A stretch of 64,000 bases of DNA from Natrononativus amylolyticus. Its GTDB lineage: Archaea; Halobacteriota; Halobacteria; Halobacteriales; Natrialbaceae. The stretch is from contig NZ_CP101458.1 in assembly GCF_024362525.1 (NCBI RefSeq), positions 1,240,001 through 1,304,000 on the forward strand, written 5' to 3'. A model generated the notes under the pieces. That model had not been told where the DNA came from. It did not search any database and saw nothing but the letters and a program-made list of their open reading frames with translations. The translations under genes and the position numbers were made by a program. Below, piece after piece: positions 2,078 through 31,344 of the stretch. Each line of letters begins with the position of its first letter. The stretch's first letter is position 1.

Positions 2078-2902
2078 CTACAGCGAGTAGGTCTCGCCGT
2101 CGACGGCCAGGGGCTCCTCGAACGCCTCCTCGACGGGGTAGAAGTGAGCGGCGTGGACCAGCCGCGTCCGGGTCGCGTTCAGTTCGTCGGCCAGCTCGAG
2201 CGCGCCCTCGCGGGTCATGTGCTTGGTTCCGAACGTTCGAGCGACGCCCTCGCTGGTCTCGTGGCGGCCGCCGATCGGGTGGTAGTCCGCGAGGCTCGCG
2301 GGGACGATCGCGTCGGCCAGAAAGAGGTCGGGGTCGGCCAGCACCTCGCGCGAGCGCTCGGGAACGGCGTAGCTGGTGTCGCCCGACAGCGACAGCTTCG
2401 CCCCCGTCTCGGGGTCCTCGATCGCGAGGCCGTAACACACCAGCGGCGGGTGGTCGACGGGGACGAGGGTGACGTCGAACCCGCAGACCCGCACCGGCTC
2501 GAGCGGCGTCGTCGGACGAACCGTCACCGCGTCGAGGTAGTAGTAGTCCGAGGCGACGGTGTCGGCGACGCTCTGGCCGGTTTCGGGGTCGATCTCGTCG
2601 GCGGCGTACACCTCGAGGTCCTCGAGGACGCGAAAGACGTTGCCGAGGCCGTCGAGGTGATCGAAGTGGACGTGCGTGACGACGGCAGCGTCGGGCAGCG
2701 GCGGCTCGTCACGGAGGAACTGATACCGGAGGTCGGGGCTCGCGTCGACCAGCAGCGACTCGCCCGCGCGTTCGTTCTCGACGTGTACCGAAAACCGGGT
2801 GCGCTCGACGCCGCGCTCGCGGGCGGCCTCACAGGTTTCACAGCGACAGCCGACCGTCGGCGTGCCGGTCGTATCGCCGGTTCCGAGGAGGGTCACGCGC
2901 AT
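2078..2902 (-). CDS. MBL-fold metallo-hydrolase, PhnP/PqqB-like
   Basis: The 274-residue protein starts at ATG 2902 with MRVTLLGTGDTTGTP. A longer reading to 3025 adds 41 Arg/Gly-rich residues with no family support. The metallo-beta-lactamase ligands are visible: THVHFDHLDG (about residues 79-88), a later SGDTSYAVP Asp, and His residues in HMTREG and HAAHFYP. A GCRCETC cysteine cluster near residue 20 matches the zinc-binding loop of PhnP-like phosphodiesterases. PhnP cleaves cyclic phosphoribosyl phosphate, but no phosphonate genes are nearby, so the substrate is unknown. Confidence 0.85.
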   Translation of the reverse strand: MRVTLLGTGDTTGTPTVGCRCETCEAARERGVERTRFSVHVENERAGESLLVDASPDLRYQFLRDEPPLPDAAVVTHVHFDHLDGLGNVFRVLEDLEVYAADEIDPETGQSVADTVASDYYYLDAVTVRPTTPLEPVRVCGFDVTLVPVDHPPLVCYGLAIEDPETGAKLSLSGDTSYAVPERSREVLADPDLFLADAIVPASLADYHPIGGRHETSEGVARTFGTKHMTREGALELADELNATRTRLVHAAHFYPVEEAFEEPLAVDGETYSL

Positions 2903-3092
2903 CCTACCACCCCCTTCCGCTGGCGGGCCGGCGCGGCGGTCTCGCGGTCGCTGCCGGCCGGTCCTCCCGACGTGATCCGGGGCGATGGCCCACTCATTGG
3001 CGTGCGCTTCGGTCGCCGGCACCAAGGCTGTTACCCGCCTGGGATCGAGGGCGAGGACGCGAACCGGACGCGAGGCACTTCGGTACGGATGT

Positions 3093-3109
3093 CTCTCAGC
3101 GGCTGAGAG
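3093..3109. repeat. Perfect 8-bp-arm inverted repeat
   Basis: CTCTCAGC and GCTGAGAG flank a single G, in the gap between the MBL gene and the tRNA-like sequence at 3162. It could be a cruciform, a dimeric-regulator site or an RNA hairpin. Nothing else in the 2903-3375 gap looks coding. Confidence 0.5.
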
Positions 3110-3161
3110 CCGCCGGTGGACACATTATGAAAGGAGTCGAACACGTAACCGTCGCACTCGC

Positions 3162-3232
3162 GTCCGAGGTGGTCTAATGTCAAGATCGCCCCGGTACGGG
3201 GAGATACGCGGTTCAACTCCCGTCCTCGGACC
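3162..3232 (+). pseudogene. tRNA-like sequence with degenerate anticodon and T arms (tRNA remnant)
   Basis: GTCCGAGG (3162-3169) pairs perfectly with CCTCGGAC (3224-3231), like an acceptor stem. Next comes TGGTCTAATGTCAAGA, which matches the D-arm of the tRNA-Gly at 47905 at 15 of 16 positions. A TTCAACT loop stands in the T-loop position. The anticodon arm is not canonical: CCCCG-GTA-CGGGG leaves no 7-base loop and no T33, and the T stem is mispaired. The reading is a decayed or rearranged tRNA, possibly the scar of an integration site next to the polysaccharide gene group. A functional tRNA-like RNA cannot be excluded. Confidence 0.5.
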
Positions 3233-3335
3233 TTCTCACTTCGTGTCGCCGGCCGACAGCGACCGCCCTCGAGAAACGCCGAGTAGTCGTCGGCCGAAAC
3301 CCCAGTAGGCGCCCGGTACCGTCCCGTACACGGTG

Positions 3336-3346
3336 AATACTTTATT
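3336..3346 (+). promoter_or_regulatory. Candidate TATA box for the GNAT gene
   Basis: AATACTTTATT lies 30-40 bp before the ATG at 3376 in otherwise GC-rich sequence. This is the spacing expected for a leaderless haloarchaeal transcript. Confidence 0.4.
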
Positions 3347-3375
3347 CCGTTACAGTCATCGGTTCCGGACAGTAG

Positions 3376-4479
3376 ATGTCTCAAAAAACAGCGACCGTCG
3401 GAGACCTCCCTCGCAAATCGGCGGTCACCGACGAGTACCGAGTCGTTCGGCAGACGGAGTCGGGCCACGAGCTCCGCGTCCTCGAGTCGATCCGCGGAAT
3501 CGAGCGCGAGCGGTGGAACGCGGTCGTCGAGCGCTCGAGTCGGGGAAGCGTCTTCCACCGCTACGAGTGGCTCGAGGCGATCGAGGTGGGGATCGGCTCG
3601 ACGCCCAGACACCTCGTCGTCACGAAGGACGGGAACGTCATCGGACTGTTTCCGAACTTCGTCGTCGGCATCGGGGAGACGCCGTTTCGGCGGCTGGTCT
3701 CCTCGCACCCGGGCTTCGGCGGCCCGGTGCTGACGACCGACGTCAAGACGTCGCTCTCGCTCGCGACGGAGGCGATTCCGACGCTCTGTACGGGTCGGAC
3801 CGTCGCCCACGAGATCCGGGTGTGCGACCCGAACTACCTCCGGTACAACGCTCACCTCGAGTCGGCGGGCTACCGACCGACGCGGATGGGCGGGCGGTTC
3901 GTCCTCGACCTGACCGACGGCTACGAGGAGGTCCTCGCCGGGATGAGCAAGAGCAGGCGCAAGGACATCCGCCGTGGCCGGGAGGGCGACTACGAGATCG
4001 TCGAGGAGGAGCTGACGGGCGAGCGACTCGAGCGGTTCTACCGCGTCTACGAACGGCACGTGGATCGACTCGGGGGGGAGCGTCTCGCCTTCGAGTTCTT
4101 CGAACACCTCCTGACGATGGAATCCCGCGTGCTGTTGCTCACGCTCCGCGTCGACGGCGAGTACGCCGGCGGATTCCTCGAGTTACTCGACGAGGAGCAG
4201 TCCGCGGTTCACGGCTTCGTCGCTGCGGTCCCGCCGGAGTACTTCGAGCACCACGCCTCGGAGCTGCTGTACGACTACGTGCTCCGCTGGGCGATCGAGA
4301 ACGGCTACGAGCGCTACGACTTCGGCGGCTCGGGGGCGAACTTCGAGAGCGGTGTCTTCCGGTACAAGGAGGGATTCGGCGGCGACCTCGTCCCGAACGT
4401 CTACTGGGAGCGGGGCTGTAGCCCGCTCTGGAAACCGATCGAGGCGGGTCGCTCGTTCTACCTGCGCCACCTGGCGTGA
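3376..4479 (+). CDS. FemAB-like GNAT-family N-acyltransferase
   Basis: The 367-residue protein has two GNAT-like halves, as in the FemAB/BioF2-like family. The first half has a donor-site type segment with LVVTKDGNVIGLFPNF at about residue 80. The second contains KSRRKDIRRGR (about 195) and the family-typical C-terminal YDFGGSGANFESGVFRYKEGFG (about 315-336). Related proteins transfer amino acids or acyl groups to cell-surface precursors. Placement beside an epimerase, flippase and glycosyltransferase suggests modification of a surface glycan. No signal peptide is present. The acyl donor is unknown. Confidence 0.8.
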   Translation: MSQKTATVGDLPRKSAVTDEYRVVRQTESGHELRVLESIRGIERERWNAVVERSSRGSVFHRYEWLEAIEVGIGSTPRHLVVTKDGNVIGLFPNFVVGIGETPFRRLVSSHPGFGGPVLTTDVKTSLSLATEAIPTLCTGRTVAHEIRVCDPNYLRYNAHLESAGYRPTRMGGRFVLDLTDGYEEVLAGMSKSRRKDIRRGREGDYEIVEEELTGERLERFYRVYERHVDRLGGERLAFEFFEHLLTMESRVLLLTLRVDGEYAGGFLELLDEEQSAVHGFVAAVPPEYFEHHASELLYDYVLRWAIENGYERYDFGGSGANFESGVFRYKEGFGGDLVPNVYWERGCSPLWKPIEAGRSFYLRHLA

Positions 4480-28178: not shown

Positions 28179-29078
28179 ATGCAACTGGGCGTCATCGGAC
28201 TGGGACGGATGGGACAGATCGTGACACGGCGGGTGCTCGAGGCGGGCCACGACGTCGTCGCCTTCGACCTCGAGGCCGAGGCGGTCGCGACGGCCGCGGA
28301 CGCGGGCGCCGACCCCGCCGACTCGATCACGGATCTGGCCGAGCGGCTGGGCGAAAAGAAGCGCATCTGGCTGATGGTTCCCGCGGGCGCGCCGGTCGAC
28401 GCGACCCTCGAGGAGCTCGCGCCCCACCTCGACGACGACGACGTGGTGGTCGACGGCGGCAACTCCTACTTCCAGGACACGATCCGGCGGGCCGAGAGCT
28501 GTCCTGCTGCGTACCTCGACTGTGGCACCTCGGGCGGCCCCGCGGGCGCGGAGCTGGGCTTCTCGCTGATGGTCGGCGGCCCCGAATCCGCGTACGAGGA
28601 GATGACTCCCGCGTTCGACGCCGTCGCCACCGGTCCCGACGGCCACGCCCACATGGGCGAGGCGGGATCGGGCCACTACGTGAAGATGGTCCACAACGGC
28701 GTCGAGTACGCGCTGATGCAGGCCTACGGCGAGGGGTTCGAGCTGCTCCACGAGGGCCGCTACGACCTCGATCTCGAGGCCGTTTCGGGGGTGTGGAACA
28801 ACGGCGCGGTGATCCGCTCGTGGCTGCTCGAGCTCTGCGAGGAGGCGTTCCGCGAGGAGGGCTCCGACCTCGGGGACGTCGCGGATCGGATCGAGGGCGG
28901 CTCGACCGGCACCTGGACGGTCCAGGAGGGTCTCGAACAGGAGGTGCCGGTGCCGTTGATCTACACGGCACTTGCCGAGCGGTTCGGCTCGCGGGCCGAC
29001 GAGGGTCGGTTCTCGCGGCGGCTGGCGAACCGGCTGCGCTACGGTTTCGGTCGCCACGAGGTTCCCCGCCGGGAGTGA
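28179..29078 (+). CDS. gnd: 6-phosphogluconate dehydrogenase, decarboxylating (short NAD-type)
   Basis: The 299-residue protein begins MQLGVIGLGRMGQIVTRRV, the N-terminal Rossmann GxGxxG. The substrate motif VVDGGNSYFQDTIRR (about 88-102), CGTSGGPAGAELG (about 115-127) and the catalytic GHYVKMVHNGVEYALMQ (about 165-181) are complete. The length is that of the short archaeal/bacterial NAD+-linked form rather than the 470-residue NADP+ enzyme. It converts 6-phosphogluconate to ribulose 5-phosphate, supplying pentoses in haloarchaea. Confidence 0.95.
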   Translation: MQLGVIGLGRMGQIVTRRVLEAGHDVVAFDLEAEAVATAADAGADPADSITDLAERLGEKKRIWLMVPAGAPVDATLEELAPHLDDDDVVVDGGNSYFQDTIRRAESCPAAYLDCGTSGGPAGAELGFSLMVGGPESAYEEMTPAFDAVATGPDGHAHMGEAGSGHYVKMVHNGVEYALMQAYGEGFELLHEGRYDLDLEAVSGVWNNGAVIRSWLLELCEEAFREEGSDLGDVADRIEGGSTGTWTVQEGLEQEVPVPLIYTALAERFGSRADEGRFSRRLANRLRYGFGRHEVPRRE

Positions 29079-29151: not shown

Positions 29152-30666
29152 GTGAACGTACTGGTCGTCCTGGGTCATCCGCGAACGGACAGCCTCTGTG
29201 GCGGACTGGCCGAGGCGTACGCGGCGGGCGCCCGCGACGCCGGCCTCGAGGTTCGAGCGCTCGCCCTCGGCGAGTGCGAGTTCGACCGCGACGTCCACAC
29301 CGAGTGTCCGAGCGACCAGGCCCTCGAGCCGGATCTCGCGGCGGCCGAACGCGAGATCGAGTGGGCCGACCACCTCGTCTTCGTCTACCCGAACTGGTGG
29401 GCGACGATGCCGGCGCTCCTCAAGGGGTTTTTCGACCGACTGTTCAGGCCCGGCTTCGCGTTCTCGATGTACGAAGACGACGAGGGGGCGGGCCACGAGA
29501 AGCTGCTGTCGGGGAAGACCGCCGAGCTGGTCGTGACGATGGACATGCCGCCGTGGGTGTACCGGTGGATCTACCGCCAGCCGGGCACCAACGCCGTCAA
29601 GCGCGGCATTCTGGGCTACGCGGGCGTCGAAACGACTCGGACCACGGAGTTCGGCCCCGTCGAGGACTCGACTGCGAACGAACGGAGCGAGTGGCTCGAA
29701 CGGGCTGAAGAGCTGGGCCGACGCCTCGAGAGCGGCCCGAAGTCCGACCGACAGCGGGTGGTGGATCGAGCGACGACCTGGATCGGTGCCCTCCGCCTGC
29801 AGTTCTACCCGATGGCGTGGATCGCCTACACCGTCGGGGCGCTGGCCGCGGCCGGCTCTGGAGTGCTCACCTCGGCCGTCTACTGGCTCGGGTTCGCGTT
29901 CCTGTTCTGTCTCGAGGCCGCCACCGTGTTGAGCAACGAGTACGCCGACTACGAGACCGACCGGCAGAACACGTTCGCGGGACCGTTTACGGGCGGCTCT
30001 CGAGTGCTGGTCGAGGGAGACCTTTCGTTCGGGGACCTCAGGCGGGGAATCGGTATCGGGCTGGGGCTCGCGGGTGCGTTCGGGGCCGGTGTTCTCGCCG
30101 CCGGCGCCGGATCGTTGCCAGCCATGGCGGCCGCGATGGCGATACTCTCCGTGCTGGCGCTCGGCTACACGCTTGCGCCGCTGAAACTGGCCTACCGAAC
30201 CCTCGGGGAGTTGGACGTGGCCGTCACCCACAGCATCGGCGTGTTGCTCTGTGGCTACCTCTTCCTCGGGGGGACGTGGACCGACGCGGAGCCGTGGCTG
30301 CTCGGTCTCCCGTTCTTGCTCTCGATTCTTCCCGCGATCACGCTGGCGGGCGTCCCGGACTACGCTGCCGACCGCGCCGCTGGCAAGAAGACGCTCGCGG
30401 TCCGGTTCGGCGTCGGCGGCGCGGCCGCGGTCGCCGCCGGGACCGCTCTGCTCGCCGCGGCCGTCGGGAGCCTCTGGCAGTTCCTGGGGATCGTCGACGC
30501 CTACGGGCCGGCGATCTACCTCGGAATCCCGCACGCGTTGGTGCTCGTCTGGCTGTTACGGACGCGACTCGACCTCGAGACCCCGGGTCGAATCGACGTG
30601 CTGATGGTGGCATCGCTGAGCTACATCGTCTGGTTCGGCGTCGTCCCGCTGGTTGGTCTGCTGTGA
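29152..30666 (+). CDS. Fusion of NAD(P)H-quinone-oxidoreductase-like flavodoxin domain and UbiA prenyltransferase
   Basis: From GTG 29152 the protein has 504 residues in one open frame. Residues 1-190 are a flavodoxin-like NQO domain with LGHPRTDSLCGGLAEAYAA and VFYVYPNWW-type FMN contact (FVYPNWWATMPALLKGFFDR near 80). Residues 205-504 form a UbiA prenyltransferase with nine hydrophobic segments. Its prenyl-diphosphate motifs are NEYADYETD (about 262) and DYAADRAAGKKTLAV (about 402). The fusion suggests that a quinone or phenol ring is reduced and prenylated at the membrane. The substrate is not known. Confidence 0.87.
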   Translation: MNVLVVLGHPRTDSLCGGLAEAYAAGARDAGLEVRALALGECEFDRDVHTECPSDQALEPDLAAAEREIEWADHLVFVYPNWWATMPALLKGFFDRLFRPGFAFSMYEDDEGAGHEKLLSGKTAELVVTMDMPPWVYRWIYRQPGTNAVKRGILGYAGVETTRTTEFGPVEDSTANERSEWLERAEELGRRLESGPKSDRQRVVDRATTWIGALRLQFYPMAWIAYTVGALAAAGSGVLTSAVYWLGFAFLFCLEAATVLSNEYADYETDRQNTFAGPFTGGSRVLVEGDLSFGDLRRGIGIGLGLAGAFGAGVLAAGAGSLPAMAAAMAILSVLALGYTLAPLKLAYRTLGELDVAVTHSIGVLLCGYLFLGGTWTDAEPWLLGLPFLLSILPAITLAGVPDYAADRAAGKKTLAVRFGVGGAAAVAAGTALLAAAVGSLWQFLGIVDAYGPAIYLGIPHALVLVWLLRTRLDLETPGRIDVLMVASLSYIVWFGVVPLVGLL

Positions 30667-30759: not shown

Positions 30760-31344
30760 ATGGACTACAGCCAGATGGGGCTCATTCTCGGACTCGTGAT
30801 GACCCTGGGGGCCGTGGCCCTCCACTACCTCAAGGGAACACCGTGGACCCCCCGCGAGGACATCACGCAGGAGGTCCTCGAGCACCGCGCCAGCACCGTG
30901 CCCGAGACGGACTTCCCCGAACCGATGAACCGCGCCATCGGCGGTGGCGGCGCCGTCGCGGTCGGTGGCGGCGAAGCCGGCGGCGAACTCGAGGAGGGCG
31001 AAGACGGCGGTGGCGGCGGCGCTGCCTCCGGCCCCGGCGACATCCCCGAAGACGAGATCGAACACTACGAGATCGAGTTCGTCAAGGAGGGGGCGACGAT
31101 CGAAGTCGCCAACAACGAACCCCTGCTCGACCGCGGCGAGGAGGAGGGCTGGGACCTCCCCTACGCCTGCCGACAGGGTCAGTGTGTCTCCTGTGCCGGG
31201 AAGATTTCGGGCGACGCGAACGAACTGGTCGAACACGACGACCAGCAGATGTTAGACGAGAACGAGATGGGCGACGGCTACGTCCTCACCTGCGTCGCCT
31301 ACCCCCGCGGCGAGTTCTCCATCGAGACCAGCGAGACCCCCTGA
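30760..31344 (+). CDS. Membrane-anchored plant-type [2Fe-2S] ferredoxin
   Basis: The 194-residue protein starts with a hydrophobic anchor (about 6-23, MGLILGLVMTLGAVALHYL). A Gly/Glu-rich linker follows (about 62-95), with a run of glycines. The C-terminal plant-type ferredoxin domain has the C-x4-C-x2-C loop ACRQGQCVSCAGKI (about 142-155) and the fourth cysteine in VLTCVAYP (about 180). It would carry electrons at the inner membrane face. The anchor and glycine linker are unusual compared with the free haloarchaeal ferredoxin. It is followed by tRNA-Arg. Confidence 0.9.
   Translation: MDYSQMGLILGLVMTLGAVALHYLKGTPWTPREDITQEVLEHRASTVPETDFPEPMNRAIGGGGAVAVGGGEAGGELEEGEDGGGGGAASGPGDIPEDEIEHYEIEFVKEGATIEVANNEPLLDRGEEEGWDLPYACRQGQCVSCAGKISGDANELVEHDDQQMLDENEMGDGYVLTCVAYPRGEFSIETSETP

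Follow-up and report, generated by a model that had tools for sequence, protein, structure and literature searches.

A single gene joins a quinone reductase-like domain to a UbiA domain

The window analyzed in this study is a 64,000-nucleotide stretch of the genome of the haloarchaeon Natrononativus amylolyticus (contig NZ_CP101458.1, positions 1,240,001 to 1,304,000). Positions 29152-30666 of its forward strand form a single stop-free frame whose translation comprises 504 residues. The features of this gene are listed below with their window coordinates.

29152..30666, + strand: fusion gene, GTG start, 504 codons plus stop
29155..29709, + strand: Flavodoxin_2 / NQO-type NAD(P)H:quinone reductase domain, residues 2-186 (Pfam, solved match, model fold)
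29173..29193, + strand: GHPR..S motif, residues 8-14 (conservation in relatives)
29386..29439, + strand: YPNWW.TMPA.LKGF.DR signature, residues 79-96 (conservation in relatives)
29710..29778, + strand: variable linker, residues 187-209 (alignment; mostly helical in the predicted model)
29821..30597, + strand: UbiA prenyltransferase domain, residues 224-482 (Pfam, model fold)
29935..29961, + strand: first Asp motif, N262-x3-D266-x3-D270 (invariant in 28/28 aligned fusions)
30226..30231, + strand: T359-H360, subgroup-specific pair (alignment of fused with standalone UbiA)
30358..30393, + strand: second Asp motif, D403-x3-D407, with K412 and T414 (invariant in 28/28 aligned fusions)

An alternative in-frame start at 28972 would fall within the upstream gene, and alignment and ORF comparison reveal that the longest ORF of many relatives starts with M-N-V-L at the residue matching the window GTG. 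The length of the frame is no proof of coding by itself because an antisense ORF of 735 amino acids overlaps most of the same DNA. The codon-position GC values of the flavodoxin half (0.705/0.475/0.88) and of the UbiA half (0.688/0.507/0.875) both match those of the two flanking genes, whereas the values of the antisense frame (0.829/0.645/0.616) do not. In Pfam searches, PF02525 (Flavodoxin_2) matches residues 2-186 with 118.3 bits against a cut-off of 27 (4.7e-34), and PF01040 (UbiA) matches residues 224-482 with 74.7 bits against a cut-off of 34.2 (9e-21).

An earlier note on this DNA, made from the letters alone, had proposed that an NQO-like flavodoxin and a UbiA enzyme with both diphosphate motifs intact are carried on one polypeptide. 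The open frame, the Pfam domains, and the conservation bear out the single chain, and the invariance of N262-D266-D270 and D403-D407 agrees with the intact motifs. A missed stop between the domains, which that note saw as a possible flaw, is present neither in the window frame nor in any of 33 haloarchaeal matches. The fusion is a real, conserved polypeptide. It is no accident of assembly because the same fusion is found in 33 of 391 haloarchaeal genomes as well as in Pseudomonadota and Gemmatimonadota.

Distribution of the fusion

A total of 84,980 species genomes were scanned with the window protein via exact peptide patterns, and 80 of 134 relatives were kept, such that distant fusions may have been missed among the at least 79 loci recovered. 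Both halves lie within one frame at no fewer than 28 loci (L001-L028, of which L026 has an internal loss), whereas 50 loci (L030-L079) match the flavodoxin half only. Two further loci, L029 from a Rhodovibrio MAG and L125, run past contig ends (for L125, as inferred from the locus length) and are not counted as full fusions.

Counts per genome, which may miss weaker or split relatives, were made with three candidates scored in each haloarchaeal genome, up to nine in the order of Litchfieldella, and six in the class of Lutibaculum and in Gemmatimonadota. The 33 haloarchaeal genomes (E <= 1e-20, own genome included) are spread over 11 of 86 genera; 32 of them, again including the own genome, belong to the family of the window's organism, and the remaining genome comes from a different family within its order. 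All 33 matches span at least residues 2-501 with no internal stop. Strong matches to the UbiA half occur in 2 of 244 genomes of the Litchfieldella order and in 2 of 385 of the Lutibaculum class, both fused in each case. In Gemmatimonadota the fusion is present in 4 of 249 genomes, with three copies at full length and one apparently cut by a contig end. Another full-length copy, carried by a Roseinatronobacter plasmid, is annotated merely as 'NAD(P)H-dependent oxidoreductase'. Natronococcus, Natrialba, Haloterrigena, Litchfieldella, and Roseinatronobacter are among the named hosts, many of which come from saline or alkaline places.

The search for other proteins with both domains, as the earlier note had suggested, therefore yielded examples in haloarchaea, Pseudomonadota, and Gemmatimonadota. 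Consistently split homologues, which would have spoken against a working pair, were not encountered: the UbiA profile matched none of the closed ORFs of at least 60 amino acids at the 50 flavodoxin-only loci, many of which lie on short contigs. Among 25 UbiA-half matches in the Litchfieldella-order search, 23 are weaker (1e-31 to 4e-11). Ten of these were examined and none has a flavodoxin half; the other 13 include open frames of 436 and 477 amino acids.

In Natronolimnohabitans sp. A-GB9 (L026, 6001-7182), ∼104 UbiA residues including the first Asp motif are missing from an in-frame product of 393 amino acids. Unless this is an assembly error, the UbiA half can therefore decay while the flavin half is kept. 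At one fusion locus of the Litchfieldella order (L110), a transposase-like gene pair at 2548-3707, which we take to be of the IS3 type, lies just downstream from the fusion and hints at mobility.

The reductase half resembles quinone reductases

The flavodoxin half matches the solved quinone reductase 3lcm by sequence (6.3e-18). A structural model was predicted from an alignment of 28 fusions (A1, without L026 and L029) with a mean pLDDT of 89.4 and a pTM of 0.76. In fold comparisons, NQO1 and NQO2 align to this model at Z 19-21 across 183-189 model residues, and archaeal and bacterial quinone reductases also align to its N-terminal part at Z about 21. The fusion does not reach the NCBIfam cut-offs of the KefF model (34.8 versus 210) or of PRK09739 (68.1 versus 162).

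The GHPR..S motif is presumably the start of the flavin-binding loop, a role that we assign from the family. Its residues H9, P10, and S14 are present in all 36 fused proteins and in 44, 49, and 50, respectively, of 50 standalone flavodoxin relatives. Similarly, Y79, P80, W82, W83, P87, K91, D95, and R96 are each found in at least 35 of the 36 fused proteins and in all 50 standalone ones. Given that the flavin-side residues are kept equally in both groups, the reductase half looks active as judged from its sequence.

Azoreductases and FMN reductases belong to the same fold family and appear among the weaker matches. It is thus conceivable that this half supplies something else, such as free reduced flavin or azo or nitro reduction, while the prenyl acceptor of the UbiA half is an unrelated phenol. 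However, quinone reductases are the solved proteins nearest to this half in both sequence and fold, and we consider such an arrangement very unlikely. The reading retained here is that the substrate of the N-terminal domain is a quinone.

The UbiA half forms a subgroup near MenA

None of the 19 NCBIfam models that match the fusion protein at E <= 0.1 reaches its cut-off. The MenA models (PRK06080) score 25-36 bits against cut-offs of 264-522 (best, 36.1 versus 346), PRK12884 scores 44.6 bits against 269, and ubiA_other scores 20.3 bits against 180.8. The 19 families include neither TIGR00751 (MenA) nor TIGR01474 (4-hydroxybenzoate UbiA). In the searches of the Litchfieldella order and the Lutibaculum class, fused UbiA halves match at E values of about 1e-104 or below, followed by matches at 1e-31 or weaker. 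MenA models score best on three of the next-best standalone UbiA proteins (L111, L112, and L119), one of which is over a cut-off.

A profile constructed from 20 UbiA halves (alignment A2) has two solved matches, which are UBIAD1 (4.7e-7, spanning positions 2-289 of 297) and an archaeal DGGGP synthase (8.6e-5). The UbiA part of the model aligns to UbiA enzymes at Z 21.3-23.5, with 4od4 at 23.5 and UBIAD1 (8djk_B) at 23.4; the Aeropyrum and Archaeoglobus UbiA proteins and an archaeal DGGGP synthase tie with UBIAD1 in this comparison.

Individual residues were compared between 35 fused UbiA halves (L026 excluded) and 14 standalone rows. The latter consist of seven rows of a MenA group, where L084 and L119 pass a MenA cut-off and the remaining five are assigned by tree position, and seven others. 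The Asp residues of the motifs are identical in fused and standalone rows. Other positions set the fused halves apart. T359 is present in 35/35 and H360 in 34/35 fused rows, and this pair is absent from all 14 standalone rows, being replaced by F-F in the seven of the MenA group. Likewise, V259 is found in every fused row, whereas all standalone rows, including 7/7 of the MenA group, have Asn there. M221 and Y226 also distinguish the fused halves. By these sequence criteria, the UbiA half stands apart as a subgroup of its own, close to MenA.

With the Asp motifs invariant and the flavin-side residues kept, both halves look active. The remnant in L026, which retains the reductase half and an in-frame portion of the UbiA half without the first Asp motif, would be compatible with a UbiA half that is mainly a membrane anchor or regulator, in which case the protein would be a membrane-tethered quinone-detoxifying reductase. 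An anchor would not need the Asp motifs, K412, or T414, but all of these are invariant in the 28 archaeal and bacterial fusions. This possibility is therefore quite improbable.

The two halves appear to have descended together

In a quick tree of the flavodoxin half, one branch (SH-aLRT 99) separates 36 fused rows from 50 standalone ones. A careful tree of the UbiA half, which carries a long-branch warning, likewise splits 36 fused rows from 22 standalone rows by one branch (97/98). Duplicates (L086, L093-L101) were excluded from the trees, L029 has no row for want of a closed ORF, and L122-L125 lie outside the trees. The pairwise distances of the two halves, compared without L026, correlate with an r of 0.934 for 35 proteins and of 0.837 for the nine bacterial proteins alone; 0 of 2000 permutations was as high in either case. 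Because the fused rows are one-sided in both trees and the distances of the halves agree, the data probably reflect one old fusion that has spread between domains of life. In both trees, the haloarchaeal rows cluster with L018, a contig assigned to a Gemmatimonadota MAG, and the bacterial set next to this group is more diverse. For this reason a bacterial origin with subsequent transfer to haloarchaea is likely, although the trees are unrooted.

Most host genomes tested keep their own quinone pathways

The own genome has seven UbiA-family genes, which NCBIfam resolves into a heme o synthase, two DGGGP synthases, MenA, a PRK12875-type protein, the fusion, and one unlabelled member. MenA is over its cut-off, is separate from the fusion, and adjoins genes that we read as MenB and MenC. 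The PRK12875 protein, also over its cut-off, is presumably a LyeJ-type enzyme. The unlabelled protein (L087, 1231-2091) has 286 amino acids, meets no NCBIfam cut-off, and is MenA-like mainly in its C-terminal half. It forms one clade with L107 and L108 in the UbiA tree, a second haloarchaeal UbiA-like family without a label. The second DGGGP synthase over its cut-off (L083, 1423-2274) resides on a separate contig (C2) beside an ORF that we take to encode a cytochrome P450. The heme o synthase (L081, 1435-2868; 477 amino acids) appears to be a further UbiA-family fusion, since its N-terminal part resembles heme A synthase, CtaA.

Pathway markers were scored in 13 fusion genomes. MenD is over its cut-off in six (three haloarchaea and three Gemmatimonadota) and UbiA_proteo in another six, all Pseudomonadota; none has both, and one, a MAG, has neither. 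These figures cover MenD and UbiA_proteo only, with the futalosine route outside the test and some MAGs incomplete. Because a MenD or UbiA-type pathway of the host is present in 12 of the 13 genomes, the fusion is, on this evidence, an extra enzyme that replaces neither. Moreover, the hosts differ in their main quinone, which argues against DHNA or 4-hydroxybenzoate as a common substrate.

These data also bear on whether the fusion could take the place of MenA (DHNA prenyltransferase) or of 4-hydroxybenzoate UbiA in the main host pathway. MenA-type models are among its nearest NCBIfam matches, and MenA-like proteins among its nearest standalone rows. However, its scores for PRK06080 and PRK12884 are far under the cut-offs, and the own genome has the separate MenA. 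In addition, MenD over the cut-off is lacking from seven of the 13 fusion genomes, six of which have a proteobacterial UbiA, and only 33 of the 391 haloarchaeal genomes carry the fusion. We consider a role in the main pathway highly improbable, and favor that of an additional enzyme.

Many Natrialbales are reported to have no complex III (PMC8305020). A link between the fusion and the absence of this complex was considered and rejected, since the frequency of cytochrome b (PF00033) shows no association with the fusion: it was detected in 2 of 32 fusion genomes of the window's family versus 2 of the 20 fusion-free ones listed. It is also present in the sole fusion genome of another family. The own genome keeps cytochrome b (G000:C1:440549-441085), and 30 of the 32 fusion genomes of the family lack it at the same threshold.

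Gene neighborhoods vary by lineage

Neighboring genes were clustered across 29 loci (L001-L029), and 10 neighbor proteins were scanned. None of the seven window neighbors recurs at other fusion loci. A gene near the fusion in the window presumably encodes 6-phosphogluconate dehydrogenase. Directly downstream from the fusion and codirectional with it is a gene (30760-31344) for a 2Fe-2S ferredoxin (Pfam Fer2) with a hydrophobic N terminus, which has no counterpart at the other loci. In the Natronococcus/Natronorubrum/Natronolimnohabitans group, the surroundings of the fusion repeatedly include members of a cupin cluster (11 loci), a DEAD helicase, and a carbonic anhydrase, none of which was found at the bacterial loci L018 and L020-L025; this recurrence looks like inherited gene order. 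In 10 loci of the Natronococcus/Natronorubrum type, clustering places the cupin immediately ahead of the fusion and codirectional with it (L001, 5558-5923, where it was identified by Pfam), whereas at L004 a member of the cluster is downstream and reversed. Near the fusion in a Burkholderiaceae MAG are genes for a DctM transporter and for a LysR regulator. The neighborhood was rejected as a guide to the substrate, as neighbors vary by lineage and no quinone gene was recognised among them. The neighbors of other two-domain proteins, which the earlier note suggested searching, thus give no indication of a substrate.

On the Roseinatronobacter plasmid, genes for catalase, superoxide dismutase, a sigma-70 factor, and a ferritin-like protein are near the fusion. 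This proximity to oxidative-stress genes is what might be expected if the order of reactions were reversed, with the UbiA domain making a prenylated quinol and the reductase keeping this product or the quinone pool reduced, either as an antioxidant system or as an NADH:quinone oxidoreductase. NQO-type enzymes accept many quinones, which would permit such a role. In contrast, inspection by eye of two flanking genes per side, few of them scanned, revealed no stress neighborhood elsewhere, and the water-exposed NQO pocket is presumably better suited to small soluble quinones than to long-tailed ones. Reversed order is therefore unlikely, and reduction followed by prenylation remains our preferred sequence of events.

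A proposed reductase-prenyltransferase

A quinone ring must be reduced, and thereby electron-rich, to accept a prenyl group. On balance, we think it probable that the fusion is a bifunctional, membrane-bound quinone reductase-prenyltransferase, which reduces a free quinone and prenylates the resulting hydroquinone; the activities, their order, and the substrate are inferred. The N-terminal flavin domain, presumably on the cytosolic side, would take hydride from NAD(P)H and reduce a free, unprenylated quinone to the hydroquinone. This intermediate might then be handed over between the domains, and the C-terminal UbiA domain would add a polyprenyl chain to the electron-rich ring within the membrane. 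The product could be an additional or salvaged prenylquinone, and the host MenA or UbiA would not be replaced.

The idea in the earlier note that a ring is reduced and then prenylated fits both families and the rank of UBIAD1 as the best solved profile match, but it keeps the standing of a proposal, with the neighbors silent on the substrate. Published precedents are consistent with it. UBIAD1 prenylates menadiol, formed by reduction of menadione, and its assay in cell fractions supplies menadione, GGPP, and DTT (PMC10719312). A fungal UbiA enzyme is reported to prenylate a simple hydroquinone (PMC12790560). No report of activity for any fusion member was found in the open-access literature. 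Counting against the proposal are the loss in L026, the presence of V259 in place of Asn, the varied neighbors, and the tie of UBIAD1 with archaeal UbiA proteins in fold comparison.

A broader and more tentative hypothesis, to which we give somewhat less than even chances, is that these proteins represent an undescribed class of reductase-prenyltransferases that capture quinones from the environment or from side pathways and convert them to a novel membrane prenylquinone. Such a class would have moved between bacteria and haloarchaea, and would work in hosts that use menaquinone as well as in those that use ubiquinone.

Significance and comparison with known systems

A search of mainly open-access literature, judged by titles and abstract beginnings and covering for two of its queries the best 15 of 69 and 8 of 135 matches, found no description of the fusion. 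To our knowledge, the reduction and prenylation steps have been known only on separate proteins. The fusion brings two known families together in a new way, although neither the fold nor the chemistry is new. It would be striking if the predicted prenylation of free quinones proves true. A single-chain version, conserved in archaea as well as bacteria and fused in every strong match checked, would offer a direct system for hand-over from a soluble flavin site to an intramembrane prenyltransferase. If the proposal is true, some halophiles and some Pseudomonadota are predicted to contain an extra, unrecorded prenylquinone, and the enzyme might be put to use in producing vitamin K-type compounds from free quinones.

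NQO1/NQO2 and the Flavodoxin_2 quinone reductases (3lcm, 4r81) have the whole fold and the YP.WW..MPA.LKG..DR signature in common with the fusion. These reductases are soluble proteins, whereas in the fusion the domain shares a chain with a membrane enzyme and branches as a separate subgroup in the tree. MenA ranks close to the fusion both among NCBIfam models and among standalone rows, and its Asp positions in both motifs match those of the fusion. In contrast to MenA, the fusion has V259 rather than Asn, T359-H360 rather than F-F, and R349 rather than His.

UBIAD1, the MK-4 synthase, resembles the fusion in its overall UbiA fold (Z 23.4) and is the better of the two solved profile matches. 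However, in the alignment Asn replaces V259 in UBIAD1, Ser replaces N262, and Gly replaces D270, an Asp following two residues later. UBIAD1 is a stand-alone protein, and menadione reductase is its separate partner. The proposed action of the fusion would resemble that of the mammalian 'menadione reductase plus UBIAD1' pair, but with both steps assigned to a single protein.
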